Of a DNA stretch of 41,331 nucleotides, positions 8,897 through 30,444 are shown piece by piece. The position numbers and the translations under genes were made by a program. A model generated the notes under the pieces. The model saw only the letters and a program-made list of their open reading frames with translations. It ran no database searches and had not been told where the DNA came from. Each line of letters begins with the position of its first letter. Position 1 is the stretch's first letter. The DNA is from Oscillospiraceae bacterium (GTDB lineage: Bacteria; Bacillota; Clostridia; Oscillospirales; Oscillospiraceae), in the NCBI GenBank assembly GCA_017403885.1, contig JAFRDM010000091.1, positions 1 to 41,331 on the forward strand, written 5' to 3'.

Positions 8897-8926
8897 TTTT
8901 CCTTGCGTTATAAGCGAAAAAAAGGC

Positions 8927-8955: not shown

Positions 8956-8978
8956 AGAAAAGTAAGGATTAAGGTTAG

Positions 8979-9008
8979 AAAAGAGTGGGTCGACGCCCAC
9001 TCTTTTTT
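8979..9008 (+). terminator. Leader terminator (attenuator) upstream of rimP
   Basis: A stem formed mainly by GAGTGGG (8983-8989) and CCCACTC (8996-9002), extended by A-T pairs, closes a CGAC loop and runs into TTTTTT. It lies between the promoter and rimP, with no gene in front of it. In Bacillus subtilis a NusA-dependent leader terminator autoregulates the nusA operon. The same arrangement here suggests NusA limits its own synthesis, which is inference. Confidence 0.75.
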
Positions 9009-9044
9009 GTGAGAAAAATCGTGCGGACTCCGCAGGAGAATACT

Positions 9045-9503
9045 ATGAGCAGAATCATTGAAAAAGTGACGGAACTTGCCAGACCGATCGTGGAAGAAGA
9101 GGGCTGCAGCCTTTGGGATGTGGAATATGTGCGCGAAGCGGGCTCCCGCTATCTGCGCGTTTACATCGACAGACCGGGCGGCGTCGATATCTCCGACTGC
9201 GAGCGCATCAGCCGCCGTCTCGATCCGATACTGGACGAGGCCGATCCGATCCCGGAGAGCTATGTCTTCGAGGTCGGCTCTGCCGGCATCGAGCGCGAAC
9301 TTAAGCGCCCGAGCGATTTTGACGCCTTTCTCGGCAGCGAGGTCGAAGTCAGGCTCTACCAGCCCGTCGACGGGCAGAAGGCCTTTGTCGGGAAGCTTGT
9401 TTCCCACGACGGCGACGGCGTCACCGAAATCGACGTGAAGGGAAAACGCTATCGCTTCAGCAAACAACAGACCGCGCAGGTCAGACTGCACGCAACGATA
9501 TAA
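9045..9503 (+). CDS. rimP: Ribosome maturation factor RimP
   Basis: The 152-residue protein assists 30S subunit assembly. Typical family segments are visible: LARPIVEEEGCSLWDVEYV near the N-terminus, LRVYIDRPGGVDISDCE, and YVFEVGSAGIERELKRPSDF, which matches the family pattern (YxLEVSSPGxxRPL). The C-terminal half is the SH3-like domain. I chose ATG 9045 because GCAGGAGAA lies 8 bases before it; a longer frame from 8985 would start inside the leader terminator. It is first in the cluster, 16 bases before nusA. Confidence 0.93.
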   Translation: MSRIIEKVTELARPIVEEEGCSLWDVEYVREAGSRYLRVYIDRPGGVDISDCERISRRLDPILDEADPIPESYVFEVGSAGIERELKRPSDFDAFLGSEVEVRLYQPVDGQKAFVGKLVSHDGDGVTEIDVKGKRYRFSKQQTAQVRLHATI

Positions 9504-9519
9504 AAAAGGGGTATAGAAC

Positions 9520-15841: not shown

Positions 15842-16756
15842 ATGGCAGAGATAAAACGCGTCGTCGCCATCGGCTTCTTTGACGGCGTGCACATCGGTCA
15901 CGCTGCGCTGCTGGAGAGAGCGAAACAGCGTGCCCGCGAGGGCGGCGCGATCCCCTCGGTCGTCAGCTTTGACGTCCATCCCGACAATCTCGTTTTCGGC
16001 GGCGAGGTGAAGCTCATCAACAGCGCACTCGGCCGCGAGGATCTGATCCGCCGGCTCTTTGGCATCGACAACGTGGTGTTCCTTCACTTTAACCGCTATT
16101 TGATGACGATGCCCTGGGATACTTTTATTCGTTCTCTCTGCGGCGAGCTGAATGTTTCTTATATCGTCGTCGGGTATGATTTCCGCTTCGGATACAAGGG
16201 AGAGGGGACTGCTGAAAAGCTGAGAGAGTTCTGCGCTTCGCACGGTCTCGGCTGCGACGTGATCCCCGCCGTCACGCTCGACGGCCGCAAGGTCAGCTCA
16301 AGCTATATCCGCACGCTGATCGAAAACGGCGATATGGCGGAGGCGCGCCGCTATCTGGGACATCCCCATATCCTCACCGATACGGTTCACTCCGGCTATC
16401 ATCTCGGCAGCAAGCTCGGCGCGCCGACGATCAATATGTTTTTCCCGGAGGGCGTGCTGGTGCCTCGCCATGGCGTCTACGCTGCGCGCGTGTGCCTTGA
16501 GGACGGCGAGAGCTACCTCGCCGTGACCAATGTCGGCGTCCGTCCGACGGTCGGCAGCGATAACCGCGTCAGTGTGGAGAGCCATTTGCTGGACTATTCC
16601 GGCAACCTGTACGGACGCCAGGCAAGAGTGGAATTCTATGCCTTTCTGCGAAGCGAGATCAAGTTTGCCGGCATCGAGGAGCTCTCTGAGCAGATCGCCC
16701 GGGACGCCGAGGCGGCTAAGCGATATTTCAAAGAATACGACGGCCAGCTCAACTGA
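15842..16756 (+). CDS. ribF: Bifunctional riboflavin kinase / FAD synthetase
   Basis: The 304-residue protein converts riboflavin to FMN and then FAD. The N-terminal FAD-synthetase half shows AIGFFDGVHIGHAALL (nucleotidyltransferase HxGH-type) and VGYDFRFGYKGEG, then SSSYIRTLIENGDM. The riboflavin-kinase half has GSKLGAPTINMFFP with the PTxN motif, PRHGVYAARV and SVESHLLDY. The start is two bases after the truB stop. It is the last gene of the cluster; the terminator stem begins inside its final codons. No rpsO follows, unlike many Firmicutes. Confidence 0.95.
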   Translation: MAEIKRVVAIGFFDGVHIGHAALLERAKQRAREGGAIPSVVSFDVHPDNLVFGGEVKLINSALGREDLIRRLFGIDNVVFLHFNRYLMTMPWDTFIRSLCGELNVSYIVVGYDFRFGYKGEGTAEKLREFCASHGLGCDVIPAVTLDGRKVSSSYIRTLIENGDMAEARRYLGHPHILTDTVHSGYHLGSKLGAPTINMFFPEGVLVPRHGVYAARVCLEDGESYLAVTNVGVRPTVGSDNRVSVESHLLDYSGNLYGRQARVEFYAFLRSEIKFAGIEELSEQIARDAEAAKRYFKEYDGQLN

Positions 16757-16851: not shown

Positions 16852-17661
16852 ATGAACAACATACTCGGCGACAACATAGCAAGACTCAGAAAAGAGAAAG
16901 GCATGACGCAGGAGGAGCTCGCAAGAGAGCTGAACATCTCCTATCAGGCTGTGAGCAAGTGGGAGAACGGCGTCTCGTCTCCGGATATTTCCAATATCAA
17001 GCTTCTGGCGCAGTTTTTCGGCGTGAGCATCGACATGCTCTTCGGTCTTGAGTTGATGCCGGAGAAAGCGGGGGAGCTTCCCGCCTTTGCGGATACGGAT
17101 GAGGCGGGACCTGCGCCGGAAGCGGAGCCGGAAAGGCTCGCGGATGAAGTGTCTCAGCCCGAAACGGTCTCCGGCGCGGCATACGGCGAGGAGGCCGCTC
17201 TTCCCTGGGAGGACGACGACACGCTGCGTGCCGTGCTGTTCAAAGGGCGGCAGCTCGTATCGGCGGAGAAGCTTGGCAAAGGCCTCTTCGGCGGGAGCGT
17301 CCGGCTCGAATACAGCGGCGAGGCGCTGAACGTGTTCAGCTTCTTTGATGTGGACTGCGAGTCTGTCAGAGGCAATGTTGAAGCGGGCGGCGACGTCGAC
17401 TGCGCTGAGGTCGGCGGAAACGTCAGCGCCTCGGGCGACATCGATTGCGGAAGCGTTTCCGGATCGGTAAGCTGCGGCGGCGACGCCGATTGCGACGACG
17501 TGGGCGGCGATCTGCGTGCCGGCGGAGACGTGAACTGCGGGACGGTCATCGGCAGCGTCAGCACAGGCGGCGATGTGAACTGCGGAAATGTGGGAGGAAA
17601 TCTCAGCGCCGGCGGAGACGTATGCTGCGGCATCGTCAGGGGAAATGTGTATCGCGGATAG
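16852..17661 (+). CDS. XRE-family regulator fused to a Cys-ladder beta-solenoid repeat domain
   Basis: The 269-residue protein has a standard HTH_3 domain at about residues 5-60 (IARLRKEKGMTQEELARELN, then SYQAVSKWENGVSSPD). An acidic linker follows (about 75-120). From about residue 165 to the end there is a glycine-rich repeat of 15 residues, roughly N-V-x-A-G-G-D-V-x-C-G-x-V-x-G. It occurs six times in register, with a partial copy before and after. This pattern suggests a short right-handed beta-solenoid of the polymer-forming (bactofilin-like) kind, with the Cys residues stacked in a column. Such a column could bind metal or respond to redox state, which is inference. AAGGAGG gives an ideal ribosome site for ATG 16852. 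It is a single gene, ended by a terminator. Confidence 0.8.
   Translation: MNNILGDNIARLRKEKGMTQEELARELNISYQAVSKWENGVSSPDISNIKLLAQFFGVSIDMLFGLELMPEKAGELPAFADTDEAGPAPEAEPERLADEVSQPETVSGAAYGEEAALPWEDDDTLRAVLFKGRQLVSAEKLGKGLFGGSVRLEYSGEALNVFSFFDVDCESVRGNVEAGGDVDCAEVGGNVSASGDIDCGSVSGSVSCGGDADCDDVGGDLRAGGDVNCGTVIGSVSTGGDVNCGNVGGNLSAGGDVCCGIVRGNVYRG
17374..17643 (+). repeat. Six in-frame 45-bp repeats coding the Cys-ladder domain
   Basis: Six consecutive 45-base units encode 15-residue repeats, each with GD-x-x-C at the same place. The DNA copies are diverged at the base level but constant in length. No indels break the register, which points to structural selection. Confidence 0.8.
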
Positions 17662-17667
17662 AATAAG

Positions 17668-17701
17668 ACGGACATCGGATCGTTCCGATGTCCGTTTTTT
17701 T
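17668..17701 (+). terminator. Terminator after the XRE gene; left copy of the flanking hairpin
   Basis: The 12-bp stem ACGGACATCGGA / TCCGATGTCCGT (17668-17679, 17684-17695) has a TCGT loop and runs into TTTTTT. The same stem, preceded by the same GAATAAG, recurs at 29417-29457 on the far side of the six-gene cassette. Confidence 0.9.
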
Positions 17702-17764: not shown

Positions 17765-17793
17765 TTGCCTTTATAATTCGAGCGTGTTATATT
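17765..17793 (+). promoter_or_regulatory. Promoter of the six-gene TIR/LRR/SLOG cassette
   Basis: TTGCCT (17765-17770) and TATATT (17788-17793) are 17 bases apart, 72 bases before the first ATG. No other good promoter is evident inside the cassette, where intergenic gaps are at most 21 bases. Confidence 0.65.
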
Positions 17794-17864: not shown

Positions 17865-19895
17865 ATGGCCTATACGGCGATCGAAAAGATGCGCAGAGAA
17901 AACGAAAAACGGTTCGGAAAAGACATCGGCCCCAAACAGCCGCCGCTCTATCGGGAGCCTGGAAAAGAATACAATTTGAAATGCGCGGCGCTGCGCATGC
18001 TGCACGGGCGCTGCGAGGAACTGCTCTTCGATCCCGCAGCCGAGGAGGCGGAGCGCGGCGGCGTTTATCTGGGCAAAAGCCTGTCTGCCGGTCAGATCCC
18101 CTTCAACATGCAGCGGGACATCGACCGCCTGTGTCTCGAAAAAGCGCTCGAAGCCTTTTTTGATTCCGGAGTGGCGGAGGACGCCTACACCGTCTACTAC
18201 TGCTATCTGGCAATGTTTCTCGGCCGCTACGGCAATTCCAAACGCATGGTCGAGCTTCTCTCGGAGTATGAATCCAACGGCAGCTCTCTGCTGATGAAGC
18301 ATCGGGACCATTATTCCCATTCCGTTTATGTTTTCGCCCTAGGGCTTGCGATCTACGAGACGAACGAAGCCTATCGCCGCGCGTTCATCGATTTTTACGG
18401 ACTGAACGATCGCTCCGAACATGAGGCGGCAAACTGCTTTCTCGAATTCTGGGGGCTCACCGCGCTGTTCCATGACATCGGCTACCCCTTCGAGCTTCCC
18501 TTCGAGCAGGTTCTCAGCTATTTTGAGGTCGACCATCTCGAGAGAGGAAAAGGCTGTTTGTACCTGGCCTATCACGACGTCAACATGCTCACCGCGCTGG
18601 ACGAAGCCGCGCAGGCCCACTTTGAGAGCCTGTACGGGAAGCGCTTTGCGACGACGAGCGCATTGCTCGCGCATGATCTGTACTGCAAGCTGGGAGAGGC
18701 CTACGGCTTTTCAGAGAGCTATCTGCTCGGAGAGCTCGACCGAAAGCCGACCGATCCGAGCCGCTTCGGCTATTTCATGGACCATGCCTTTTTCAGCGCA
18801 GCGCGGCTGTACAGCGAGCTTGCCGAGGAGCTGGGCGCTTCAAAACTGACAAAGCTGCATGTCGACGCGCTGTCCGCCATCGTTCTGCACAACAGCCTGT
18901 ATAAGTTTTCTATCGCGTTCTATAAAGACAAGGACAGGCGTAAGGCCCCACTTCGCGCCGATCTGCATCCTTTGGCCTGGCTGCTGATGCTCTGCGACGA
19001 GCTGCAGTGCTGGGACCGCACGGCCTATGGACGCAACTCGCGCACGGAGCTGCACCCGATGGCTGCGGACTTTGATTTCAGCGGCGGGCTCCTGAGCGCG
19101 GTCTATTACTATGACCAGGAGGAACAGGAGAAGATCAGCGCCTTCAAGGAGCAGTACAGGCTTTGGGAAGAGAGCGGCGAGCAGGGAAAGCCGCCGCGGC
19201 TGAAGGCCTACAGCGATATGGCGGAGAAGGAGCAGCGCTTCACCGCGGATATTGAAAAAATCGTCGACACTTCCTTCATCCCTCTGCGCATCGTGCCGGA
19301 CGTGCGCCCCGCGGACCGCAGATGCAAGCATATTTATCTGTCTGACAGCAATTTCCTGCATTTGTACGATTTTGCCGTGGCTCTTCACGGGCGGAACATG
19401 CCGCCGGAGACCACAACGGAAGAGCTGGAGGCGAAATTCGACGCACAGTCTCTGGAATATCAGATCTCCGGCATCAACCGCGCCAAGAACTTCGGCCGTT
19501 ATCTCAACGCGATCGGCTGCTTCTACACGGACAGGCCGGTGGATTACGAGATGCTGCACGCTTTCACGCCCGAACAGATGGCGGTCGTCGCGCCGCTGGA
19601 GCACGAGCGCTGGGTGCTGGAGCACCAGCAGATGGGCTGGCGCTTCGGAACAGACTATGAGACCCTGCCGGTCAAGGGCTCGACGATCGAGGAGAAGCGG
19701 CGCGAACGCGGCACGCTGCGCGAACAGCTGCGCTGCCACAAGCTCGCGATGGACGGCAAGCCCACCGAGGAGGAGATCTGCCGGCACTATTTCACGCTCT
19801 CCGAGGAGGATCAGGGCAAGGACTGGAGACCGTTCAACGGCATGCTCAGGCTGCTGAGAAAATTTGACGGGCTGAGGATCTACCGCCTGTCGTGA
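17865..19895 (+). CDS. HD-domain phosphohydrolase with C-terminal RyR-like domain (cassette gene 1)
   Basis: The 676-residue soluble protein has an HD-type metal site: H152 in RDHYSHSVYVF, the H203-D204 doublet in LFHDIGYPF, H307 in MDHAFFSAARL, H342 in AIVLHNSLY, and D378 in LLMLCDELQCWDR. This H-HD-H-H-D series is like HD-GYP and related nucleotide phosphodiesterases. The C-terminus (about 570-676) resembles the RyR domain: VAPLEHERWVLEHQQMGWRFG, a basic CHKL segment, then SEEDQGKDWRPFNGMLRLL. Residues 1-140 and 455-560 are unassigned. RyR domains recur in bacterial gene sets proposed to use nucleotide signals, so it may sense or destroy a nucleotide made by the TIR protein; that is inference. 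An upstream in-frame start (17688) is rejected because it reads through the promoter. Confidence 0.75.
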   Translation: MAYTAIEKMRRENEKRFGKDIGPKQPPLYREPGKEYNLKCAALRMLHGRCEELLFDPAAEEAERGGVYLGKSLSAGQIPFNMQRDIDRLCLEKALEAFFDSGVAEDAYTVYYCYLAMFLGRYGNSKRMVELLSEYESNGSSLLMKHRDHYSHSVYVFALGLAIYETNEAYRRAFIDFYGLNDRSEHEAANCFLEFWGLTALFHDIGYPFELPFEQVLSYFEVDHLERGKGCLYLAYHDVNMLTALDEAAQAHFESLYGKRFATTSALLAHDLYCKLGEAYGFSESYLLGELDRKPTDPSRFGYFMDHAFFSAARLYSELAEELGASKLTKLHVDALSAIVLHNSLYKFSIAFYKDKDRRKAPLRADLHPLAWLLMLCDELQCWDRTAYGRNSRTELHPMAADFDFSGGLLSAVYYYDQEEQEKISAFKEQYRLWEESGEQGKPPRLKAYSDMAEKEQRFTADIEKIVDTSFIPLRIVPDVRPADRRCKHIYLSDSNFLHLYDFAVALHGRNMPPETTTEELEAKFDAQSLEYQISGINRAKNFGRYLNAIGCFYTDRPVDYEMLHAFTPEQMAVVAPLEHERWVLEHQQMGWRFGTDYETLPVKGSTIEEKRRERGTLREQLRCHKLAMDGKPTEEEICRHYFTLSEEDQGKDWRPFNGMLRLLRKFDGLRIYRLS

Positions 19896-19911
19896 TCGGG
19901 AAGATGGCGCG

Positions 19912-20739
19912 ATGAAAAACTGGCACAAATCGATACCTCCCTACGAAGGGGAGGAGCCCTATCTGTATTTTGCCTTTGCGCAGGCGGACGAAAAAAAGGT
20001 TTGGAAGATCCTGCGCCCGCTGCTCGAGCGCGGCTGCCGTGTGTGGTACTGCTTCGGCCGCGCGGGAGGCGCGGACGAACTGCTGCGCCGGCAGGAGCGC
20101 GCCTCCCGCGCGGCGCTGACGCTGCTTTATCTCTCGGACGAGGCCTGCGCGGACAAAGCTACGAAGACCTATGTGCTCGTCAATCAGAAGGACGGAAGGC
20201 AGATCCTCTGCCTCGATCCGGACGGAGCGGACCGCCGCCTTCGGATGGGCCTGCGCGAGGACATTGTACATATACCGCTTTACAAACTCACCGGCAGGGG
20301 AGAGGTCGAAGAGAGTCTTATCCATGCGGAGGGCTTTTCGCAGGAGATCATCGGCGAGCCCGTCAAAATCGCAGGGGGGAGAGCGCTCGCAAGACTGAGC
20401 GCCTTGTTCTGCCTTCTTGCGATCCTGCTCTCCGCCCTTGCCTTCGCAGGGCTCCGCTGTTTTCACTGGTTCACGCCTGAAATAACGGACGAGGTGGAAC
20501 TGAGCGATCCCGTGATCCGTGCCGGCGTCCGTGAGGCGGCGAGAGGCGGCGCGATCACGCCGGAGCTCACGGATGAGCTCACCGAGCTGCGGCTCGACGC
20601 CATGCCGCAGAGCTGGGAGGATCTTTCCCTCCTGCCCGCGCTCGAGCGCATCGAGATCCCGCAGCAGGCGCTGCTCGACGGCGCTCCGCTGCCGGAGGGC
20701 GATTATACGATCGAGCTGAACGGAGGTGACGGACCGTGA
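19912..20739 (+). CDS. Degenerate TIR-TM protein with a stub LRR ectodomain (cassette gene 2)
   Basis: The 275-residue protein starts with PPYEGEEPYLYFAFAQAD, the same opening as gene 3, followed by a TIR-like fold to about residue 125 (RGCRVWYCFGRAGGADELL, LTLLYLSDEACADKA). Where active bacterial TIRs have a Ser/Cys...Glu helix, this protein reads CADKATKTYVL, so the catalytic Glu is missing and NADase activity is unlikely. One membrane segment lies at about 160-181. The outside part is only about 90 residues and looks like an LRR N-cap plus one repeat and the shared C-terminal cap (ALERIEIPQQALLDG). It is 16 bases after gene 1 and overlaps gene 3 by 4 bases. Probable role: adaptor or regulatory partner of gene 3 (inference). 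Confidence 0.7.
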   Translation: MKNWHKSIPPYEGEEPYLYFAFAQADEKKVWKILRPLLERGCRVWYCFGRAGGADELLRRQERASRAALTLLYLSDEACADKATKTYVLVNQKDGRQILCLDPDGADRRLRMGLREDIVHIPLYKLTGRGEVEESLIHAEGFSQEIIGEPVKIAGGRALARLSALFCLLAILLSALAFAGLRCFHWFTPEITDEVELSDPVIRAGVREAARGGAITPELTDELTELRLDAMPQSWEDLSLLPALERIEIPQQALLDGAPLPEGDYTIELNGGDGP

Positions 20740-21899
20740 GCCGCTTTTTCAAGCCTTACGAGGGCACGCGGCCCTTCCTCTTCGTCAGCTATGCCCACCG
20801 TCAGTCCGACGCCGTGGTCGAGACGATACGCATCCTGCATGAAAAGGCTTTCCGCCTCTGGTACGACGAGGGCATCCCCGCCGGCAGCGACTGGCCCGCC
20901 AACATAGCCCAGCACATGGAGCTGTGCGAACGCGTGCTGTTTTTTCTGTCACAGCGCGCGATGGAGTCTCCCAACTGTTACAGCGAGATACGGACTGCCG
21001 TTCGTATGGACAAAAAGATCCTTGTTATCCTTCTCGAGGATGTGCAGCCGGCCGAGCGCTGGCAAGAGCTCCTCTCGGGCAGAACGGTCATCCCGCTGCT
21101 TGACTCGCCTCAGGAGAGGGCGGACGCGATCCTGCGCTCGGGCTTCGTCACGCGGCGCTATCATCGCGCCCTGTTCGAGAACGTCTCCTGGCGGGCGTTC
21201 GGCTTGGCCGCCTCGCTTCTTTTCTTCCTTGCGGCGGCTTCGGCGTTCGGCGCGCTGGCGAGCGGTAAGTGGAAGCCGATCGATCCGCCGGCGGTCACGC
21301 AGGAGCTTCCCGCGGAGACGCCCGTTCCCGTAACGCCGCAGCCGGTGCTCGACCTCGGAGAGGCCGAACGGTATTTTGCCGTCAGTTTTCCGGACAAGCA
21401 GACCGAGCGGGGAGTCCGCCGCGCGCTCGGCATCCCGGAGGACGCGGTATACCGCTGGCAGCTTGCGCAGATCACACAGCTGCATTTCTGCGGGAATATG
21501 GTGACCGACGGGCCGGAAAACGTCGCCTTTGACCGGGACGGCGTTTGCCGCGTCAACGGAGCGCAGGTCATCATGGGTCAGGTATCCGATCTGAGCCTGC
21601 TGGAAAACGCCGTTTATCTCGAGAAGCTTTCCTTGATCTGCCAGCCGTTGGGGAGCCTTTCGGCGCTCAAAGGACACGTGCTGCTGCGTGAGCTCAGCCT
21701 TGCGGGAAGCACGGTGGAAAGCGTCGATGCGCTGCGGGAGCTTCCCAGCCTTGAAATTCTGCATCTGGAGCATACGGCTGTGCGCGACCTCAGATCGCTG
21801 GAGGATTTGGCCAATCTCGGCATTGTGACAGTCAGCCGCGATATGCTGCCTCTCACTTGGAGCGAGAGCGCCGTTTTCCGCGTTGTTCTGGTCGATTGA
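20736..21899 (+). CDS. TIR-TM-LRR membrane protein with apparently intact TIR (cassette gene 3)
   Basis: The 387-residue protein has an N-terminal TIR_2-type domain (about 8-125): KPYEGTRPFLFVSYAH, FRLWYDEGIPAGSDW, and RAMESPNCYSEIRTAV with candidate catalytic Glu84. It continues with KKILVILLEDV and TVIPLL. Bacterial TIRs with this Glu usually cleave NAD+. A single TM segment (about 152-175) follows RRYHR, which by the positive-inside rule puts TIR in the cytoplasm. A Pro-rich linker, an LRR N-cap (ERGVRRALGIPEDAVYRW) and about five internalin-like LRRs (245-365) lie outside. The start is GTG at 20736: GGAGGTGA lies 6 bases before it, and it overlaps the previous stop. Confidence 0.85.
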   Translation: MSRFFKPYEGTRPFLFVSYAHRQSDAVVETIRILHEKAFRLWYDEGIPAGSDWPANIAQHMELCERVLFFLSQRAMESPNCYSEIRTAVRMDKKILVILLEDVQPAERWQELLSGRTVIPLLDSPQERADAILRSGFVTRRYHRALFENVSWRAFGLAASLLFFLAAASAFGALASGKWKPIDPPAVTQELPAETPVPVTPQPVLDLGEAERYFAVSFPDKQTERGVRRALGIPEDAVYRWQLAQITQLHFCGNMVTDGPENVAFDRDGVCRVNGAQVIMGQVSDLSLLENAVYLEKLSLICQPLGSLSALKGHVLLRELSLAGSTVESVDALRELPSLEILHLEHTAVRDLRSLEDLANLGIVTVSRDMLPLTWSESAVFRVVLVD

Positions 21900-21920
21900 A
21901 AATAGTCGGAGGGAAAAAGC

Positions 21921-24900
21921 ATGAATAATTCATTCAAACTGCTGTGCGCAGAATGTGACCGCGAAGCGCTTGCGCCCATCGTCGATCAGCTGACCGAAAG
22001 GGGCTTTCATGTTTCGGGAAGCGGAAAAAAGAAAGAAAAGAACGAGCTGGTGCTGGCTGTTCTGTCCGAGCGCTTTTACGCCGACGGCGCTCTGAAGGAA
22101 AAGCTTCTCGCTCTGATCGGCTCCGGCGCGGAGAACTTACTGCCGCTGCAGCTCGACGAGGCCGCGATCCCCGACGAGATCAAGAACGCGCTGTATGCGC
22201 GCAATATCGTCTCCGCCTCCGGCAGGGACGCTGCGCAGATCGCGGAGAGAATCATTGCCGCGCTTCCGAAGAGAAAACGCTCTCTCCCGCGCATCCTCGC
22301 CGCAGCCGGTATCCTGTTGTTGGCGCTCATAGGCTTTCTTGTCTGGCGCGGCGGGCGGCAGAGCGCGGAGGAGATCCCCGTCCCCGTCGAGACCGAGCCT
22401 CCGCGCATCGAGTACGCGCTGCCCGAAGGGATCACCGCCGAGGATCTCGAAAAGGTCCGCTGCGTGGTGATCATCGGCGAACACATGAAGATCTTTACGA
22501 CCGCGGATAAGAACGACTATGTCTTTCACGGCTCCTCCAGATGGCCGGAGATGCTCTTCATGCTGGGAAGCGACGACTATCACGGCGCCGACGGCGCGGA
22601 CTGGTACTGGAACGAGGACGGCTCACAGGCTTCGCTGACAGCCTATGACCTGCGTTTCCTTTCTCTGCTTCCCAACCTTGAGGAGCTCCATATGGCGCTC
22701 GTGGATGTGACCGAGGCGCCGGATCTCAGCGAAATGGGCCGCCTGAAGGTCCTGTGGGCCAATGAATGCAGGCTAGGGAATCTCGGATGGCTTTCAAATT
22801 CGGAGATCGAGGAGATGAATATCCGTTCGCATGTCGACCTCTCGCCGCTTTCTGAAAGCAAGTATCTCGTCAAACTCAGCGTCGACGCTTATCCCGATAC
22901 CGGCGCGGATTTTTCTGCGTTCTCTCCGCAGAATCTGGCGTACTTTGATCTTTGCTGCCATAATGTCAGAGAGGCGGATCTTTCGGGCCTTTCGCGCTGC
23001 GAAAGACTGCAGGGCCTGACCCTGTCGAACGTGCCGATCAGCGATCTCTCCTTTATCGGGAGCAGTCTGCTCAGAAAGGTGGAAATGCACGGCCTGAATC
23101 GCCTGCGGGATATTTCCGCGCTGGGCGGCATCTCGGTCCTGGAAGAGCTGGAGATAGAGGACTGCGATGCGATCGCCGATTTCTCCCCGATCTCGAACTG
23201 CACGCGTCTGAAGCGTTTCCGCTACTGCACCTGGGCGGGCGGCAGCCTGTTCGACCCCTCTTTCCTGGAGCCGCTCGGCAAGTTGGAGGATCTCGAGCTG
23301 CAGAACGTCGCAATGCGGGATCTTGAATTCCTGCGTTCGATCGCAGCGGGGCGCGACAAGATCGGAAACCTCGGCATCACGGGCAATATCGGGGATTACT
23401 CCGCTCTTGATGCTTTCAAGCTGTATGAAAACCTCAATATCGATCCGGGCGACAATAAGCCGCTCGATCAGATCATGCCCTATCTCGCAGAGTCGACGGT
23501 CTACAACCTCGCGCTGCGCCGGCTTACCGACCCGGATCTGTCGCTGCTTCCGAAGGTGACGACAAGGCTGGAGCTTGACCGCTGCGGCATGACGGACCTT
23601 TCCTCTTTCAATGAGGGCCGCACGTTCTCTCAGCTCATCCTGAACAAGTGCACGGGTCTCAGCTCTCTGGATGGCCTCCAGAAGCTCATAGCCTTTACCG
23701 GTCACGGAGGAGCTTCCCTGGAGATTTATCTGTGCCCGAGACTGACCGACTGGAGCACGCTGGACGGCATGTATCTGCATTCGCTGAGAATAACGGGAGG
23801 ATTCTCGCTGCCGGACTTCTCGACGCTCCGCCTGAACAACCTCCGCCTCGACAGCGTGGCGGACGTTACGGATCTGGGATTCCTGGAGGGAATGAGCAAC
23901 ACCAACTCCTGCAACTTTGAGCTTGTCGGCCTGGAAGAACTGACCAGTCTCATGCCGCTCTACCGCTTCAAGGGCGAGGAACTGGGCGTCCAGCCGCAGC
24001 TCGCCGAGCAGGCGGAGGATCTGGTGGAAGCGGGCTGCTTCTGGAGCTATCATATCGAATACCCGCAGGGCGGCTGGGAGATGGATCAGTTGCAGGTCAG
24101 CCTGCAGAGCTTTGAAGAGCTCGAGACCCTGCCCCCGTCCCTGCTGAGGCATGTGACGAGCGTCACCGTGGCGGGCGACAGGATCGTCGACCCGGAACGC
24201 TATGACGTATGGACGGACTGGAGCGGCAGGGGCGGACCGAAGCTGATGATCACCGACCGGCAGACGGGCGAGGAAAGCGTGCTTGAAAAAGGGACGCTTA
24301 CCGATCTTTCCGTCTTCTCCGAGCTGACGGGCCTGCGCGAGCTGCACCTCTATGGTCAGCCGCTGAAGGATCTCGACGGGATCCAGATCTTCTCGGAGCT
24401 GGAGACCTTCGATACCGAGCAGTGCACGGAGCTTTCCGACGTCTCGGCGCTCTTCACGCTGCAGAGACTGAGGAACATCTTCCTGAACGACACAAAGATC
24501 GACTCAATCCAGGGCGTTCAGAATCTGCCGGAGCTGTGCCGGCTGCATATCGACCATACGAAGGTCAGCGACCTGACGCCGCTGGCGCAGTGCGATTTCT
24601 CGTATGCCTGTCAGAACGGCGGCTTTGGCTTAAGCGCCAACGATTTGCAGTTCTCCGAGGAGGATTTCAAGGCGCTGGGATCGATCGGGGTATTCAGCGA
24701 TATCAACTTTACCAACGCCGACCCGACCGTCTGGATCCCCGCGCTGGCGGATTCCGAGATCCGCAGCATAGGCGCTGCGGGAGATTTCCGTTCCAACGAG
24801 GATCTCGCGGCCTTCGCGGCGGATCATCCCGAGCTGGAATCGATGTGGTTCGGCTGGGCGGAGAAGGTAACGGATCTCACGCCGCTGCTCGGCTTGGAGA

Positions 24901-24992
24901 ACCTGCGGGTCTTCACGATCGACCGGAGCATGACCGGGGCCGTCGCAAGCCTCGAGGGACAGGAGCTGGGCTTCGAGCTGCGGCTGAATTAG
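21921..24992 (+). CDS. Large TIR-like-TM-LRR receptor protein, paralog A (cassette gene 4)
   Basis: The 1023-residue protein has a reduced TIR-like domain (about 5-115): FKLLCAECD as first strand, ELVLAVLSERFYADGALKE, LLPLQLDEAAIPDEIKNAL, then YARNI. The loops that carry catalytic residues in TIR enzymes are not recognisable. KRKR precedes a TM segment (about 124-143), again placing the N-terminus inside. The remaining roughly 880 residues are outside: a short unassigned region, then many irregular LRRs of the DLS-x-L type. A distinctive insert contains QLAEQAEDLVEAGCFW and a C-terminal cap ends ENLRVFTIDRSMTGAVASL. GGAGGG gives a good ribosome site. It shares domain order and many segments with gene 5. 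Confidence 0.82.
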   Translation: MNNSFKLLCAECDREALAPIVDQLTERGFHVSGSGKKKEKNELVLAVLSERFYADGALKEKLLALIGSGAENLLPLQLDEAAIPDEIKNALYARNIVSASGRDAAQIAERIIAALPKRKRSLPRILAAAGILLLALIGFLVWRGGRQSAEEIPVPVETEPPRIEYALPEGITAEDLEKVRCVVIIGEHMKIFTTADKNDYVFHGSSRWPEMLFMLGSDDYHGADGADWYWNEDGSQASLTAYDLRFLSLLPNLEELHMALVDVTEAPDLSEMGRLKVLWANECRLGNLGWLSNSEIEEMNIRSHVDLSPLSESKYLVKLSVDAYPDTGADFSAFSPQNLAYFDLCCHNVREADLSGLSRCERLQGLTLSNVPISDLSFIGSSLLRKVEMHGLNRLRDISALGGISVLEELEIEDCDAIADFSPISNCTRLKRFRYCTWAGGSLFDPSFLEPLGKLEDLELQNVAMRDLEFLRSIAAGRDKIGNLGITGNIGDYSALDAFKLYENLNIDPGDNKPLDQIMPYLAESTVYNLALRRLTDPDLSLLPKVTTRLELDRCGMTDLSSFNEGRTFSQLILNKCTGLSSLDGLQKLIAFTGHGGASLEIYLCPRLTDWSTLDGMYLHSLRITGGFSLPDFSTLRLNNLRLDSVADVTDLGFLEGMSNTNSCNFELVGLEELTSLMPLYRFKGEELGVQPQLAEQAEDLVEAGCFWSYHIEYPQGGWEMDQLQVSLQSFEELETLPPSLLRHVTSVTVAGDRIVDPERYDVWTDWSGRGGPKLMITDRQTGEESVLEKGTLTDLSVFSELTGLRELHLYGQPLKDLDGIQIFSELETFDTEQCTELSDVSALFTLQRLRNIFLNDTKIDSIQGVQNLPELCRLHIDHTKVSDLTPLAQCDFSYACQNGGFGLSANDLQFSEEDFKALGSIGVFSDINFTNADPTVWIPALADSEIRSIGAAGDFRSNEDLAAFAADHPELESMWFGWAEKVTDLTPLLGLENLRVFTIDRSMTGAVASLEGQELGFELRLN

Positions 24993-25013
24993 ACAGACAG
25001 GACTGTGATCGAT

Positions 25014-27812
25014 ATGGAAAACCGTAAACATGTCCGGCTTCTGCGCAGCGCTGCGGACGCAGAGGCGTTTGAGCCGATCAAAGAGCAGCTTGCCCTGCGC
25101 GGCTGCCTTCCGGACGAGACGGCAGCGGCCGGAAAGAACGACACCGTCCTTGCGGTCCTGTCGGAGAGCTTTTTCGCGGACGAGGCATTGACGCAAGGAC
25201 TGCTCGATCTGGTCGGCTCTGGAACGGAGAACGTTCTGCCCCTGCAGCTCGACGACGCGCCGATCCCGGAGAGGATAAAAAACGCGCTTTACGCGCGCAA
25301 TATCATCATGGCTTCCGGGCGCGACGCCCCGCTGATCGCCGAACGCATCGTTTCCGCGCTTCCGAAGAAGAAAAACACTCTGCCGCTTTTCCTCGGCGCT
25401 GCCGGGATCGTTCTGCTCTGCCTCGTCGGTCTGCTGATCTGGCGTTCCGTCAAGGGGAGCGAGCCTTCCCCGAAAGCACCGGATGATCCGATCATTGCGA
25501 TCCCCGAGGGCTGGACCGCGGAGGATCTTGCAGAGATCGAAGACGTCGTTGTCATCGGCGACCGGATGATCTTCCTCACGGGGGAAGAGTTGGAAGAATC
25601 GATGGAAGAGGTGCGGGATTATTTCGATCCCGGCGAAGAAGCTCCCTTCATCTACTTCGATGCGGACCTTTATGCCGTTCTTGACCAGAATTCCGACGAC
25701 GGTATGATCCACTGGTACAGCATGGAGAACGGACAGGAGCTCGAAATGGTCCGGCACGATGATCTGCGCTTTCTGACGCTCATGCCCAATCTGCGCTATC
25801 TCTCCCTGGTGCTTGTCGAAGTGCCCGCGGACGGACTGCCGGACCTCGGCGGCGCGGAAAAGCTGGAGGGTGTTGCGGTGTTGAGCTGTGGCATGGATGA
25901 TCTGAGCTGGCTTGCCGAAGCTCCCGTCCGCCAGATGCAGATCCGTTTTACGCCGATCCGCGATTTTGCCGCGCTGACGGGCTGCGAGAAGCTTGGGACG
26001 CTTCACGTGGATATGCAGGATACCGGCACGGAGGCTTCCTTTTCCGGCTTTTCTCCGCCTTCTCTGCACAATTTCTCTCTTTGGAACGCTTCCTTTTCCG
26101 CAGCGCGGGACCTTTCCGCCCTGGCTTCACTCTCCGATCTGCGCACTTTGCAGCTTTTGAATCCGGAGGGAATGAACAGTCTGTCCGGGCTGGAAAAGCT
26201 TCAGCTTGAAGATTTTGAAGTCGTAAACGGCTTTCAGCTGCAGGATATCTCGGCGCTCTCCACACAGAAAAAGCTGACCGCTCTCACGATAGACGATTGT
26301 CCCGCCGTACAGGATTTCAGCCCTGTCGCCGGCTGCACGGCGCTCGAGAGCGTGATGATCTACCCGGGCTGGGACGTGAGGCTGCGGGACGCCTCCTTCC
26401 TCGGCGGGCTGAGCGAGCTGCGGGATATCTCGCTATACAGCGTCGATCTGCCGGATATGGGCTTTCTGACGCAGCTCGGACAAAGACGCGTATCGCTCGA
26501 TAATCTCGATTTTTCCGGCGGCGTCCGGGATCTGTCCGCCCTCGCCGACGTAGCGCACTACGACAGGCTGGGGATCGACCTTTACGGCGGAAGCATGGGG
26601 CAGCTGCCCGGGGAACTGAAGGATATCACCGTTTCGTATCTTTATATGAGGCGTATTTCCGATCTGGACCTTTCGGCGCTGCCTGCGGTGACGGAACGCC
26701 TGTTTATCAACGACTGCGACTGCAGGGATCTTTCTTCGCTGCCCGATAACTGGTCGGCGTCGCGCATCCAGCTTTACGCGTGCGATCAGCTCCGTTCGCT
26801 CGAGGGCCTGGAAAGACTCGCGGATTTCGGACGCGGCGGAGAAGGGATCCTTGAGGTCTATTACTGCCCGCGCTTGGCTGACTGGAGTCCCTTGGACGGT
26901 ATGGAGCTGAATACCCTGTACATCAACGGCAGCTTTTCTCTTCCGTCGTTCCGGGATCTTCATCTCGGACTGCTGCGTCTTGAGAATGTGGAGGATCTGA
27001 CCGATCTGAGCTTTCTTGACGAGATGGACGCTTCCGCCCCCTGCAGTTTCGAGCTGATCGGTCTCGATGGCGTGAACAGCCTTGAACCGCTGCGCCGCTT
27101 TCACGGCGACCATCTCATCGTTCCGCCGCAGCTCGCCGAGCAGGCGGAGGATCTGGTCGCCGACGGCGTTTTCGGAGAGTACCGCGTGGAGTATCCCCGC
27201 GGCGGATGGTACATAGACGACTCCGTTTATGTTCTGAACGACTTTGAGGAGCTCCGTTCGCTCCCCAAAGCGCTGCTTCGCCGCGTGAGCGTCCTCTGCG
27301 CCGCGGGCGACCGTCTTGTCGATCCCGAGCGCTATGAGATCGTGACGGATCCCGAAAGCGGGCCTGCGTTGTACAACCGCGATTCAGGCGAAACGGAGAC
27401 CTTCGGTCCCGGACCGTTGAGCGATCTTGCCATTCTCGCCGAGCTGAGCGGGCTGCGGGAGCTGTCTCTGTATGAGCAGCCTCTGCGTGATCTCGGCGGC
27501 GTTCAGAGCCTGTCTTCGCTTGAAAGCTTCCGTGCGGAATACTGCGGCGAGCTGCGGGACGTCTCCGCGCTCTTTACCCTGCAGAGCCTCAGAGAGATCA
27601 GTCTGAGAGCTTCTGCGGTTTCCTCGCTTCAAGGCGTGCAGAATCTTTTTGATCTTCGAACGCTGGACGTTTCCTACACAAAGGTGAGCGATCTCAGCGT
27701 CCTCCTCGCCCTGCCGAATCTCGAGTCCGTCACGATCAGCCGGGATATGACAAGGGCAGCCGCAAGCCTTGAGGGATCGGATATTCGTTTTACTGTTGTG
27801 ATTGAGGACTGA
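25014..27812 (+). CDS. Large TIR-like-TM-LRR receptor protein, paralog B (cassette gene 5)
   Basis: The 932-residue protein is collinear with gene 4: reduced TIR-like domain (about 5-115, with TVLAVLSESFFADEAL, VLPLQLDDAPIP and LYARNI), KKK then TM (about 123-143), and an LRR ectodomain. Shared blocks include QLAEQAEDLV, the DWSPLDGM repeat and the C-terminal cap LESVTISRDMTRAAASL. It is about 90 residues shorter than gene 4 and diverged over the repeats, so the tandem duplication is not recent. I chose ATG 25014; GTG at 25005 would add three residues and is closer to AGGAC. The stop overlaps the next start as TGATG. Confidence 0.82.
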   Translation: MENRKHVRLLRSAADAEAFEPIKEQLALRGCLPDETAAAGKNDTVLAVLSESFFADEALTQGLLDLVGSGTENVLPLQLDDAPIPERIKNALYARNIIMASGRDAPLIAERIVSALPKKKNTLPLFLGAAGIVLLCLVGLLIWRSVKGSEPSPKAPDDPIIAIPEGWTAEDLAEIEDVVVIGDRMIFLTGEELEESMEEVRDYFDPGEEAPFIYFDADLYAVLDQNSDDGMIHWYSMENGQELEMVRHDDLRFLTLMPNLRYLSLVLVEVPADGLPDLGGAEKLEGVAVLSCGMDDLSWLAEAPVRQMQIRFTPIRDFAALTGCEKLGTLHVDMQDTGTEASFSGFSPPSLHNFSLWNASFSAARDLSALASLSDLRTLQLLNPEGMNSLSGLEKLQLEDFEVVNGFQLQDISALSTQKKLTALTIDDCPAVQDFSPVAGCTALESVMIYPGWDVRLRDASFLGGLSELRDISLYSVDLPDMGFLTQLGQRRVSLDNLDFSGGVRDLSALADVAHYDRLGIDLYGGSMGQLPGELKDITVSYLYMRRISDLDLSALPAVTERLFINDCDCRDLSSLPDNWSASRIQLYACDQLRSLEGLERLADFGRGGEGILEVYYCPRLADWSPLDGMELNTLYINGSFSLPSFRDLHLGLLRLENVEDLTDLSFLDEMDASAPCSFELIGLDGVNSLEPLRRFHGDHLIVPPQLAEQAEDLVADGVFGEYRVEYPRGGWYIDDSVYVLNDFEELRSLPKALLRRVSVLCAAGDRLVDPERYEIVTDPESGPALYNRDSGETETFGPGPLSDLAILAELSGLRELSLYEQPLRDLGGVQSLSSLESFRAEYCGELRDVSALFTLQSLREISLRASAVSSLQGVQNLFDLRTLDVSYTKVSDLSVLLALPNLESVTISRDMTRAAASLEGSDIRFTVVIED

Positions 27813-29413
27813 TGAATACGGAAAAGACCATTCCCATCATCATAGGCGTCACCGCTCACCGCTCGATCCGCGAGCGGGACAGAGCGGCCATTGCCGCGTC
27901 CGTGCGAAGAGAACTGCAGAAGCTGCAGACTCTTTGCCCGCACTCCCGGCTCGTGATGCTCAATTCTCTCGCCGAGGGCGGGGATCTGCTCTGCGCCGAC
28001 GCGGCGGAAGAGCTCGGCATCCCCCTCATCGCCGCCCTTCCGATGGAACGCGCGCTCTTTGAAGAAGACTTCAGCGCGGAAGCTTTGGAGCGTCTCGATC
28101 ATCATTGCCGCCGCGCCGAGCAGGTTTTCGTTACGCCGCCTGCGGAGGCTGTGCCGGACGGACCCGTCAGCCGTAACTTTCTTTTCCGCCAGTCGGGGAT
28201 CTATGTGTCCGCTCATTCCCACATCCTGCTTGCCCTATGGGACGGAGGCCCCGGAACACAGGCCGCCTGCGGCACGGCGGAAACGGTGGACTTTTCGCTC
28301 CACGGCAGCTATATGCCGCTCTCGGGCACGGCCGTCCGATCGGAGGCAAACGAAGCGGTGATCCACATTTACACGCCGCGCACAGAGCAGCCTCGGGAGC
28401 CCGCAGGGACGGTGCATCTTCTGGGCAACACCGACGCGGTGCGGGATATCCTGCGCAGAAGCGACGAGTTCAACTGCCTTGCTGCAGACACGAAGACAGA
28501 AGGCGGACGGCGCGTTCCTCTGTCGGAGCCGGATCCTCTTTTGGAGAGGATGGAGAACGTCAGCAAGGCGGCCGGCAGTCTCAGCGTTCAAAACGCCGGT
28601 AAGCTGCGGTTTGCCTTTGGCCTGCTCGCCGTTGCCAGCGCGCTGCTCACCTTTGCCTTTTTGATGTACGACGAGGCGCAGGCAATCTGGATGATCCTCG
28701 TATGCGGCCTGATGCTGCTTGCGGCGTGGCTGTGCCGGCGCTGGGCCGTCCGCTCGGACTGCCACCGCCGATACATCGAATACCGCGCGCTGGCCGAGAG
28801 TCTGCGCGTTCAGATCTTTCTCCGCTATGCGGGCAGCCGTATCCGGACGGAGGAGCTGCTGCCGTGGACCCAACAGGAGGAGACGGCCTGGATCATGGAT
28901 GCGCTCTGCGCTCTGAACACGGGAAAGGAGCCGGAAACGGCGCACGATATCCGCATGTGCTGGGCGGAGGCTCAGCGTGCGTATCATCGTGAGGCGGGAA
29001 AACGCTCCGGACATGATCTGCTCGTCAGCACCAGGACGGTTCGCTTTGCGCTTGTGCTGAGCATCACGCTCTATCTTGCCGCCGTCATCTTCGAGCTCCT
29101 CTGCGGCGGACTGATATTCCGGCCGCTCGTCCATGTCACGGATGTGGAGCTTTACCGCACGATCCTGAAGATCGCGATGGGTACGATCTCGGCCGTGACG
29201 CTCTTCGTCGCCAACTATTACGGAAGGCTCTCGTTGTCTCGCACTCTCTCCGATCATCAGAAAATGGAGCGCTTTTTCAGGAAAATGTCGGAGCGGCTTG
29301 CCGAGCAGGGACAGACGGAAGAGCTGCTGCGCGTCCTGGCGAGAGAAGAGCTGATCGAAAACGGGAACTGGTGCTCCTATCAGCGGGACAACACGCCCGA
29401 CGTCAGCATTTAG
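27812..29413 (+). CDS. SLOG-SLATT membrane protein (predicted nucleotide-gated effector, cassette gene 6)
   Basis: The 533-residue protein opens with a SLOG-type Rossmann domain (about 5-165): IIGVTAHRSIRERDRAAI, RLVMLNSLAEGGDLLCADAA, LGIPLIAALP and HILLALWDGGPGTQAACGTA. The second half resembles the SLATT/DUF4231 membrane module. Two TM helices (about 265-286 and 291-308) are followed by CHRRYIEYRALAESLRVQIF. Two more TM helices (about 411-433 and 451-469) and the closing LAREELIENGNW follow. SLOG domains bind nucleotides or their derivatives, and SLATT domains have been proposed as pore-forming effectors of nucleotide-based conflict systems. Placed last and coupled to gene 5, it is the natural effector of the set (inference). 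A ribosome site, GAGGAC, lies in the gene 5 end. Confidence 0.8.
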   Translation: MNTEKTIPIIIGVTAHRSIRERDRAAIAASVRRELQKLQTLCPHSRLVMLNSLAEGGDLLCADAAEELGIPLIAALPMERALFEEDFSAEALERLDHHCRRAEQVFVTPPAEAVPDGPVSRNFLFRQSGIYVSAHSHILLALWDGGPGTQAACGTAETVDFSLHGSYMPLSGTAVRSEANEAVIHIYTPRTEQPREPAGTVHLLGNTDAVRDILRRSDEFNCLAADTKTEGGRRVPLSEPDPLLERMENVSKAAGSLSVQNAGKLRFAFGLLAVASALLTFAFLMYDEAQAIWMILVCGLMLLAAWLCRRWAVRSDCHRRYIEYRALAESLRVQIFLRYAGSRIRTEELLPWTQQEETAWIMDALCALNTGKEPETAHDIRMCWAEAQRAYHREAGKRSGHDLLVSTRTVRFALVLSITLYLAAVIFELLCGGLIFRPLVHVTDVELYRTILKIAMGTISAVTLFVANYYGRLSLSRTLSDHQKMERFFRKMSERLAEQGQTEELLRVLAREELIENGNWCSYQRDNTPDVSI

Positions 29414-29426
29414 CGTGAATAAGAAA

Positions 29427-29457
29427 ACGGACATCGGAGCGATCCGATGTCCGTTTG
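29427..29457. terminator. Bidirectional terminator; right copy of the flanking hairpin
   Basis: The stem ACGGACATCGGA / TCCGATGTCCGT (29427-29438, 29443-29454) with GCGA loop lies between two convergent genes. T-rich bases follow on both strands, better on the minus strand. The stem and upstream GAATAAG match 17661-17695. Confidence 0.85.
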
Positions 29458-29460
29458 ACT

Positions 29461-30444
29461 TTATTTGGCCGGGCGGTTTTTCTTCCGCGTATGGCCGCGC
29501 CCGCGGCGGCGGGATTGAGCGGCTTTTGTGTTGTAAAACTCTACGGCGTCCTCATCCGCCTTGTACAGCAGCCTGCTCGCCGACCAGCTGTTGTCCTCGG
29601 CGTGCTTGCGGAATTTCACACGCATAAGGTAAGGACCGTCTTCCTCGCAGGAATAGATGCTCATATAGCGCTGATCGCCCTGATTGACCCACTTGCTGCC
29701 GGTAAGCGCTTTCCCGCAGTCGGGACAGACAAGCGCGGCGATTCGCTCGTCCGCAAAGGCGGCCGCCTTGGTCGAAAAACCGGTATAGCTCTCGTGCAGA
29801 AGAGAATCGCCGTCCTGCGATTCCGCCTGAGGAGCGGACTTTACCGTACGGGAGGCGAGGATCTGCGCCGCGTCGGGATACAGGCGCATGCCCTCGGCCA
29901 TGTCGAGGTGCGTGCACACCAGGGCCGTATTGTAGGCGTCCCCCAGCGCATCGTGAGCAACGCGGGTCTGCTCGATCTGAAAATGCTCCATCGCGCTGGC
30001 GAGAGACTTCTGGTTCTTGTCTCCGCCGGTCTGCAGGTTGTATATCAGCTGGAGGTTGACCCAACCGGCGATCCAGTCCCAGTCCAGGTCATGGATAATG
30101 ATGTTCTGCTCGAGGATCCGGCGGTCGTCGCAGCCCCAGGTGAGGAAGGTCACGCCCTCGCCGCACCACTCGCGGAAGCTCTCCAGCGCATCCGGGAAGG
30201 GAAGCCCGTGCGAGAGGCGTTCCTTGTCAAAGCCCGTGAGCTTTTTGACCTTGTAGTGCATACGCTTGAAGTAGAGAGGCTTGACGTCGATGGTGAATTC
30301 TTCGCCCAGCGTCATGTCGTCGTTGAGCTTGACGGCGCCGATCTCGATGATCTCGCCGCTGAGATGGATCGGCAGCTTGTTGAATACGGATGATTTGGAG
30401 CTCATGGCCTGGTTCCACTCCAGATCAACCACGATATAGTTCAT
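29461..30444 (-). CDS. DEDDh 3'-5' exonuclease (DnaQ/KapD-like) with C-terminal zinc-ribbon-like tail
   Basis: The 327-residue protein begins MNYIVVDLEWNQ, with Exo I acids D7 and E9. Exo II is around WGCDDRRIL (D106/D107), and Exo III is VAHDALGDAYNTA with H164 and D169, so it is a DEDDh enzyme. The sequence is closest in style to KapD/ERI-like exonucleases acting on short nucleic acids, rather than to polymerase proofreading subunits. The C-terminal 100 residues contain CPDCGK and a lone later Cys (IYSCEEDG), an incomplete zinc ribbon, then a basic tail. ATG at 30442-30444 follows AAAGGA by about 9 bases; an upstream ATG at 30474 is rejected because it lies over the promoter. Confidence 0.82.
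   Translation of the reverse strand: MNYIVVDLEWNQAMSSKSSVFNKLPIHLSGEIIEIGAVKLNDDMTLGEEFTIDVKPLYFKRMHYKVKKLTGFDKERLSHGLPFPDALESFREWCGEGVTFLTWGCDDRRILEQNIIIHDLDWDWIAGWVNLQLIYNLQTGGDKNQKSLASAMEHFQIEQTRVAHDALGDAYNTALVCTHLDMAEGMRLYPDAAQILASRTVKSAPQAESQDGDSLLHESYTGFSTKAAAFADERIAALVCPDCGKALTGSKWVNQGDQRYMSIYSCEEDGPYLMRVKFRKHAEDNSWSASRLLYKADEDAVEFYNTKAAQSRRRGRGHTRKKNRPAK

Follow-up and report, generated by a model that had tools for sequence, protein, structure and literature searches.

A six-gene TIR, LRR and HD-RyR cassette of an Oscillospiraceae bacterium as a possible surface-facing, Thoeris-like signalling system

Animal Toll-like receptors place leucine-rich repeats (LRR) outside the cell and a TIR domain inside, joined by a single membrane span, and occur as several receptors. 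Bacterial TIR systems whose triggers are known mostly sense phage parts intracellularly, and a TIR circuit equipped with large outward LRR receptors, as is proposed here, would, if true, represent a surface-sensing branch. The locus in question is a cassette of six genes (positions 17865-29413) in a stretch of 41,331 nucleotides from an Oscillospiraceae bacterium (assembly GCA_017403885.1, contig JAFRDM010000091.1, positions 1 to 41,331 of the forward strand), hereafter the window, which encodes a protein with an HD and a ryanodine receptor (RyR)-like domain (HD-RyR), a degenerate TIR protein (T2), a TIR protein and two larger proteins with LRR parts, and a SLOG-SLATT-like membrane protein. 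The closest described systems are Thoeris, composed of ThsB and the SLOG-bearing ThsA, and the phage RyR (R12) proteins, whose characterised members act on cyclic ADP-ribose (cADPR) as erasers or sponges of TIR signals, with RyDEP being a cADPR-cleaving RyR enzyme whose catalytic residue is D117 (PMC13232231, a 2026 preprint). SLATT proteins are predicted pores (PMC7159879), and one of them is reported to be necessary for DRT10 phage defence (PMC12632851); the Swarozyc DUF4062 proteins are described as TIR-like NADases (PMC13174449). Our literature search, which left most subscription papers outside its coverage, found no paper on this gene set. Of the functions considered, a Thoeris-type circuit with surface receptors is the likeliest for the cassette, and the hub formed by HD-RyR may prove to be more than that.

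Composition and conservation of the cassette

Positions 17865-29413 of the window are filled by six genes on the + strand in the order HD-RyR, T2, TIR-TM-LRR (TM, transmembrane), two large TM-LRR paralogues and SLOG-SLATT (Table 1), with intergenic gaps of 16, -4, 21, 12 and -1 bases. The first gene starts at 17865 with the ATG of a conserved MAYTA. The co-directional arrangement with gaps of at most 21 bases that the first-pass annotation had reported is therefore confirmed, both by the coordinates and by conserved homologues. Since homologues with 31-82% identity occur in 24-29 of the 102 genomes examined from the genus (G071 excluded), the cassette genes are not chance frames, and the group of six is a genuine, conserved unit, with genes of the relatives called by a codon-usage caller.

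HD-RyR was detected in 29/102 genus genomes (E ≤ 0.001), six of them holding only a diverged form (31-35% identity, some fragments), and SLOG-SLATT in 24/102, every one of which also had HD-RyR. T2, TIR-LRR and LRR4 share one set of 24 genomes, 23 with HD-RyR and 20 with SLATT, under cut-offs that we chose ourselves (E ≤ 1e-50, 1e-40 and 1e-60 respectively); at E ≤ 0.001 T2 was matched in 47 genomes, weak matches to other TIRs included. The co-occurrence gave p values from 1.1e-13 to 7.3e-24 (hypergeometric, kinship ignored). The cassette is patchily distributed. The arrangement HD-T2-TIR-LRR(1-3)-SLATT is found in the window and in loci L043, L044, L046, L049 and L053, T2-TIR-LRR-HD-SLATT in L052, L071 and L073, and HD-T2-TIR-SLATT-LRR in L060 and L063. 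In L069, L070 and L072 the diverged HD form stands with SLATT and no TIR was found nearby, and HD-RyR and SLOG-SLATT also pair without a TIR found nearby in L098 and L126; the 323-aa third gene of L069 was ruled out as a part of the system, being a Dus family protein. The only cassette copy of G071 (L177) lies on a contig (C17) of 5650 bases that is 100% identical to positions 20067-25716 of the window and lacks HD-RyR, whereas the core flanks of that genome share 78-82% DNA identity with the window; this contig was probably assigned to the wrong bin or transferred very recently, and G071 was retained in the co-occurrence counts and given no weight.

The TIR-TM-LRR protein matches TIR_2 of Pfam (E 3.3e-16), and its catalytic glutamate (Glu84) is kept in 19/19 and, in a larger set, 23/23 TIR-LRR domains, in line with the intact-looking TIR initially annotated. 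T2 is a TIR homologue (hhalign 98%, E 7.2e-14) lacking the catalytic Glu in 24 of the 25 rows filed as T2, the exception being a second, TIR-LRR-type domain within a joined frame of L147. LRR_4 or internalin-type LRR matches were obtained for genes 3, 4 and 5, and no Pfam LRR match for the window's T2, hence three of the four LRR membrane proteins initially recognised stand as such and T2 is instead a membrane protein with a degenerate TIR. The second large LRR gene is represented by 1 to 3 copies among relatives. The N-domain of the large LRR proteins was considered as a further TIR and set aside as weak (hhalign 67% vs T2, 9% vs TIR-LRR).

A single hydrophobic span was counted in T2 (18/18), in TIR-LRR (18/19), over the full length of each of the window's two large LRR proteins, and in 23/23 of their relatives, where the count was limited to the first 175 residues. 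Lys/Arg were richer on the N-side flank of the span in 18/19 TIR-LRR, 18/23 large LRR (3 ties) and 10/18 T2 proteins (7 ties), which fits a TIR inside and an LRR part outside; the TIR and N-domains are therefore probably cytosolic and the LRR parts extracellular, as the first-pass annotation had suggested and as far as sequence features allow. A Ser/Thr kinase-TM-LRR-type protein encoded just 5' of HD-RyR in several loci agrees with this orientation because its kinase part should be cytosolic; its domains were scanned in L078 (Pkinase E 1.3e-27, LRR_4 5.8e-15). A gene for about 570 aa directly upstream of HD-RyR is seen in L045, L047, L049, L051, L054 and L100, of the kinase-TM-LRR kind where scanned (L078), and the smaller gene preceding it is of helix-turn-helix (HTH) type where scanned (L045).

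Profile searches had been indicated as a check of the domain assignments, and they were clear for TIR and LRR, whereas the HD-RyR protein of the window matched neither the HD nor the RyR family of Pfam, and SLOG and SLATT remained under the Pfam cut-offs in the window's own SLOG-SLATT protein (DUF4231 E 0.0074), with relatives matched at E ≤ 1. Among 19 relatives of the latter, DUF4231 was recovered in 18 (best 7.1e-5) and YAcAr SLOG in 14 (best 0.0027) at that threshold; the window protein shows three hydrophobic peaks, and a PDB profile search with SLOG-SLATT gave no convincing match. Among 24 HD-RyR relatives, again at E ≤ 1, RyR (PF02026) was matched in 14 (best 1.8e-15), at least 9 of them among the 19 close ones, and HD (PF01966) in 8 (best 5e-4), to be read beside 7/24 for the chance family ParB_C (best 0.0021).

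The window's RyR domain is recognised chiefly through its diverged homologue. For the diverged, shorter form (five rows) the assignment to the RyR proteins is clear (6uhi, E 2.3e-26; 3nrt, a solved RyR protein from B. thetaiotaomicron, 7.4e-13), and the window form is homologous to it (E 6.9e-42) over residues about 91-597, a region covering H580 and W583, which a second profile comparison spanned again (E 4e-8). These two residues correspond to the RyDEP ligand residues H75 and W78, and H39, W42, H64 and D81 of 3nrt are spaced as H75, W78, H100 and D117 of RyDEP. H580, W583 and D653 are identical in 103/103 rows (89 distinct), and so are H149, H203, D204, H307, H342 and D378 of the HD part, with H152 in 102/103; the metal roles of these HD residues (His, His-Asp) were assigned by eye. 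The rows comprise the 24 relatives and 79 of the 80 named loci introduced below, L103 being omitted for its joined frame and 14 pairs being one gene fetched twice. An insertion precedes D653 in the window protein. The annotation had listed RyR as a candidate nucleotide sensor, and that a RyR domain can handle TIR messengers is borne out by experiments on the phage members (PMC13232231).

HD-RyR as a hub among gut Clostridia

A scan of 84,980 species, one genome each, yielded 425 HD-RyR relatives, and the best 80, many on short contigs, are the named loci discussed here. Going by record titles, these 80 are Clostridia and Erysipelotrichia, except for a few given merely as Bacillota, and sites in the ruminant gut are named in many of the titles; the close relatives of the source bacterium likewise come from ruminant guts. 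In an even draw across the phylum, an HD-RyR relative at E ≤ 1e-30 was present in 3/397 other genomes. Some contigs carry two labels, e.g., L045/L075, L047/L078, L049/L079, L051/L082 and L054/L086.

In 47/80 named loci (46 without DUF4062), HD-RyR has a TIR-type gene, i.e., one matching our own iterated profiles, T2, TIR-LRR or DUF4062, on its own strand at a distance of at most 1 kb, and in 58/80 one lies within 6 kb on either strand. With SLOG-type genes included, the 6 kb count rises to 66/80; it is 53/60 for loci whose contigs extend at least 1.5 kb upstream and 3 kb downstream of HD. L134 has a 907-aa TIR-WD40-like gene that escapes the TIR-type count, its frame overlapping that of HD. 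For comparison, 61 genus genomes hold 113 TIR_2 matches, about 1.9 per genome by a different detection method, therefore chance TIR neighbours of HD-RyR should be rare.

The partners are diverse. TIR-LRR with T2 occurs within 6 kb of HD-RyR in 20/80 loci, and other partners are a two-TIR protein with TPR/Sel1 repeats, TIR-BspA-LRR, TIR-WD40 and DUF4062-NACHT. TIR-WD40 adjoins HD-RyR in L104 and L138 (by Pfam) and in L057 (15943-18633, + strand; by our own profile). The 1289-aa DUF4062-NACHT protein was scanned in L100 (15441-19310), and a homologue stands beside HD in L086, the same contig as L054 (8318-12187, - strand), between HD and T2. Where a two-TIR gene lies within 1 kb of HD-RyR, no SLOG or SLATT gene was found within 6 kb in 15/17 loci, 9 of these 15 having the full 6 kb on both sides, in a search confined to these flanks.

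A tree of HD-RyR with 73 labelled rows needs at least 26 changes of partner class, as compared to 36-47 in 200 shuffles, and 7 changes between LRR and other partners, as compared to 16-23. Partners are thus passed on by descent and exchanged as well, and the LRR module occupies two distinct regions of this tree. HD-RyR is the hub, and the set of six is one variant of a modular family rather than its basic unit. The idea of a six-gene system put forward earlier holds as regards the linkage, which is conserved in the genus, and not as regards the exact gene set.

Insertion site and gene neighbourhood

The cassette is located between core genes, the left flank (ribF) being present in 93/102 and the right flank in 91/102 genus genomes. 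According to match coordinates, ribF and the right flank are separated by 78 bases in G071, 70 in G073, 83 in G095, 79 in G064 and 38 in G069, and the junctions read in G071, G073 and G095 show one hairpin apiece. Between the same flanks the window holds the XRE gene, the cassette and two hairpins, and the unoccupied sites of close relatives offer no room for the XRE gene. The product of the latter is repressor-like, with a run of short repeats at its C-terminal end. The paired, near-identical hairpins at the edges, vs one at each of the three unoccupied sites read, could mark a route by which the segment was inserted or exchanged.

Table 1. Features of the cassette and its edges in the window
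Feature	Position	Strand	Description
ribF, left core flank	15842..16756	+	outside cassette
XRE-type HTH gene	16852..17661	+	between ribF and cassette; membership in cassette uncertain
Terminator-like hairpin, left edge	17665..17698	+	near-identical to right-edge hairpin
Sigma-70-like promoter candidate	17765..17793	+	upstream of first gene; 9/12, TG before second hexamer; consensus match only
HD-RyR	17865..19895	+	676 aa incl. start Met; HD metal-type domain and C-terminal RyR-like domain with insertion; no TM found
T2	19912..20739	+	275 aa; degenerate TIR lacking the catalytic Glu; single TM and short tail outside
TIR-TM-LRR	20736..21899	+	387 aa; TIR with invariant Cys81, Glu84
Large LRR receptor-like protein 1	21921..24992	+	1023 aa; short weakly T2-like N-domain, a single TM and an LRR part of internalin type
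Large LRR receptor-like protein 2	25005..27812	+	935 aa; ~45% identical paralogue of protein 1
SLOG-SLATT-like membrane protein	27812..29413	+	533 aa; SLOG-type domain at the N-terminus and TM region resembling DUF4231/SLATT
Terminator-like hairpin, right edge	29425..29456		near-identical to left-edge hairpin
Right core flank gene	29461..30444	-	327 aa; outside cassette; unmatched in Pfam at E 1e-10; resembles an exonuclease by eye

In other genomes the same site is occupied by different cargo of about 1-17 kb. The cargo at L159-L161, from ribF to the right flank, includes among the scanned proteins a 1360-aa GLUG-motif protein, a Sel1/TPR protein and an FAD oxidoreductase. The annotation had asked for defence genes alongside, and no clear defence neighbourhood was observed, either at the site or around the cassettes of other genomes, although this is not a clean negative. 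For the site itself, 14 occupied examples were fetched; of 10 cargo proteins scanned, which came from 5 of them, one matched PADLOC, by its HTH only. Elsewhere, 95 neighbours were retained out of 110 after length and distance filters (15 from L069 and L072 being omitted); at E ≤ 1e-10 they gave matches to 33 PADLOC families, and the 25 shown include desulfurase-type DndA/SspA (3 proteins), mad3 (2), RmrA (2) and PDC-S48 (1), with HTH-type matches also present. One of the 95 strongly matches the defence-candidate models PDC-S01 (best 4.6e-99). The block of kinase-type matches traces to one kinase-WD40 protein of L055, and of ten large neighbours rescanned the other nine gave none.

Scans of viral contigs returned a full-length HD-RyR relative (L174, 61% identity), a short partial match (L175) and a distant TIR-LRR relative (L176). 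The L174 gene lies at 7983-10043 of a contig filed as viral, which could represent a prophage or else host DNA filed there by mistake.

Candidate circuit and comparison with known systems

The genes present, their conservation and joint occurrence, their place between core genes that lie nearly side by side elsewhere, the pairing of HD-RyR with many kinds of TIR and the conserved residues are the basis on which we tentatively favour, at less than even likelihood, a mobile, surface-facing, Thoeris-like TIR signalling cassette fed by LRR receptors, with SLOG-SLATT and HD-RyR as the responders. In such a circuit the two large receptor-like proteins and TIR-LRR would expose their LRR parts outside, with the N-domains, the competent TIR and the dead TIR (T2) inside, and a ligand or contact outside would cluster them. 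The competent TIR may then turn NAD+ into an ADP-ribose-type messenger, as its conserved glutamate and the known chemistry of the family suggest. SLOG would bind the messenger and the TM part of SLOG-SLATT permeabilise the membrane, whereas in HD-RyR, cytosolic given that no TM was found, messenger binding in the RyR pocket would control the HD hydrolase; HD-RyR might in addition use up the messenger and thereby set the timing of the response. The role of a messenger-gated enzyme is favoured because 15/17 two-TIR loci have no SLOG/SLATT within 6 kb. Growth arrest or death upon attack by a phage or competitor would be the most likely use, and it is the least supported step; an immune role is plausible in view of neighbouring genes, including those of the DUF4062 family, described as NADases (PMC13174449). 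The interpretation of the first-pass annotation is in this sense partly supported.

Several observations weigh against this proposal. Thoeris models are weak on the cassette (E 0.005-0.034; PADLOC ThsB models, E 0.0053-0.023), and its modules are sometimes unlinked, with HD elsewhere in G026 and T2-TIR-LRR and HD-SLATT on separate contigs in G081 and G097. The neighbourhood at the site gives no clear sign of defence, as reported above. A whole-protein profile of the window's HD-RyR form (19 rows) matches no RyR structure, and for its C-terminal part the 18 top matches are RyR chains, but at E 0.031 and worse. The profile comparison between window and diverged forms (hhalign) stops after the HxxW...GW stretch, short of D653, and the equivalence of D653 with D117 of RyDEP is less sure for this reason, resting on a multiple alignment (MAFFT) and a mixed profile; the phosphate-binding H100 of RyDEP has no equivalent, the aligned window position being Glu636. 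Of eight phage homologues tested, six bound and those other than RyDEP were without cleavage (PMC13232231). The glutamate column is E in just 9/15 single TIRs of other kinds and in 15/22 first domains of two-TIR proteins; in their second domains it is E in 5/23, with a Glu seen by eye two positions further. Finally, variation in the LRR part is unremarkable (33-53% per block vs 49-51% for the N-domain), and LRR variability was dropped as a weak sign of receptor diversification.

The same circuit could also be run with HD-RyR as its off-switch, binding and destroying the TIR messenger and thereby preventing accidental firing of SLATT. This alternative, which we consider rather unlikely and which ranks close behind the messenger-gated responder, agrees with the behaviour of the characterised phage RyR proteins as erasers or sponges (PMC13232231) and with the invariance of H580 in 103/103 rows, and the HD-RyR and SLOG-SLATT pairs with no TIR nearby (L069, L070, L072, L098, L126) would be an effector with its eraser. 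Under it, however, the 15/17 two-TIR and HD-RyR loci (9 with full flanks) would have only the TIR as local effector within the 6 kb searched, and the HD residues are conserved as strongly as the RyR ones. The 'HD reset' of the first-pass annotation is retained on this account as one of two live readings and is not established over a gated responder.

It is unlikely, in our estimate, that the cassette serves a non-immune purpose, with a ligand from host, diet or neighbour tuning physiology through an ADP-ribose-type messenger. The kinase-TM-LRR gene just before HD-RyR in several loci does resemble an ordinary sensory receptor, and the absence of a clear defence neighbourhood would be expected of such a function; the patchy occurrence (24-29/102 genomes), the cargo-type position and the SLATT-like membrane protein argue against it, as does the DUF4062-NACHT gene near HD in L100, with its homologue in L086, that family being one of TIR-like NADases (PMC13174449). 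That unrelated cargo genes were merely gathered at a variable site is highly improbable and largely refuted: other genomes do hold other cargo of ~1-17 kb between the same flanks, but the cassette genes recur together in differing surroundings and across families, often closely packed, and with the co-occurrence p values given above, kinship ignored.

A broader and doubtful proposal starts from the hub rather than from the cassette. HD-RyR might mark a modular signalling network of gut Clostridia, based on NAD-derived messengers and not described so far. Varied TIR sensors (outward LRR receptors resembling a Toll receptor in reverse, two-TIR/TPR, TIR-BspA, TIR-WD40) would feed a single cytosolic receptor enzyme, HD-RyR, which is built on the domain of the ryanodine receptors and would sense and self-limit a cADPR-type signal, with SLOG-SLATT opening the membrane, a bacterial counterpart of the path from TIR to cADPR to RyR. 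In view of the 2026 finding that phage RyR proteins destroy TIR signals, a cellular RyR-type domain repeatedly linked to TIR would give a testable idea on the origin of that domain, and would bear on the relation between cADPR and the ryanodine receptor, while the two-gene TIR and HD-RyR loci are a small system open to direct testing.

Compared with known systems, DUF4062-NACHT of the Swarozyc family (PMC13174449) is an occasional neighbour of HD-RyR (L100, L086), absent from the window cassette. With the SLATT proteins (PMC7159879; DRT10, PMC12632851) the cassette probably shares a DUF4231-type TM region, here with a candidate SLOG-type domain at the N-terminus; its profile scores are weak, and the partners are TIR and HD-RyR, not a reverse transcriptase. 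The layout with LRR out, TIR in, a single span and multiple receptors recalls Toll-like receptors by analogy only, since the cassette order is TIR-TM-LRR, with the TIR N-terminal and the LRR C-terminal, and the LRRs are of internalin type. The phage RyDEP/RyR (R12) proteins (PMC13232231) have in common with HD-RyR the invariant HxxW of the RyR pocket; HD-RyR is nonetheless cellular, fused to HD and encoded beside TIR genes, whereas the phage members oppose TIR defence, and the window form is diverged, with an insertion, no equivalent of H100 and a less certain one of D117. Because it falls short of the ThsB and ThsA family models, the cassette is not classed as Thoeris (NCBIfam ThcB4, 13 bits vs a cut-off of 220): its TIRs are membrane-anchored, with LRR, its SLOG is joined to a SLATT-like part and not to SIR2, and HD-RyR is an extra component. 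Thoeris and the cassette nevertheless have in common a TIR that keeps the catalytic Glu and, encoded in the same operon, a partner that in the cassette is probably of SLOG type, from which an ADP-ribose-type messenger would be expected.

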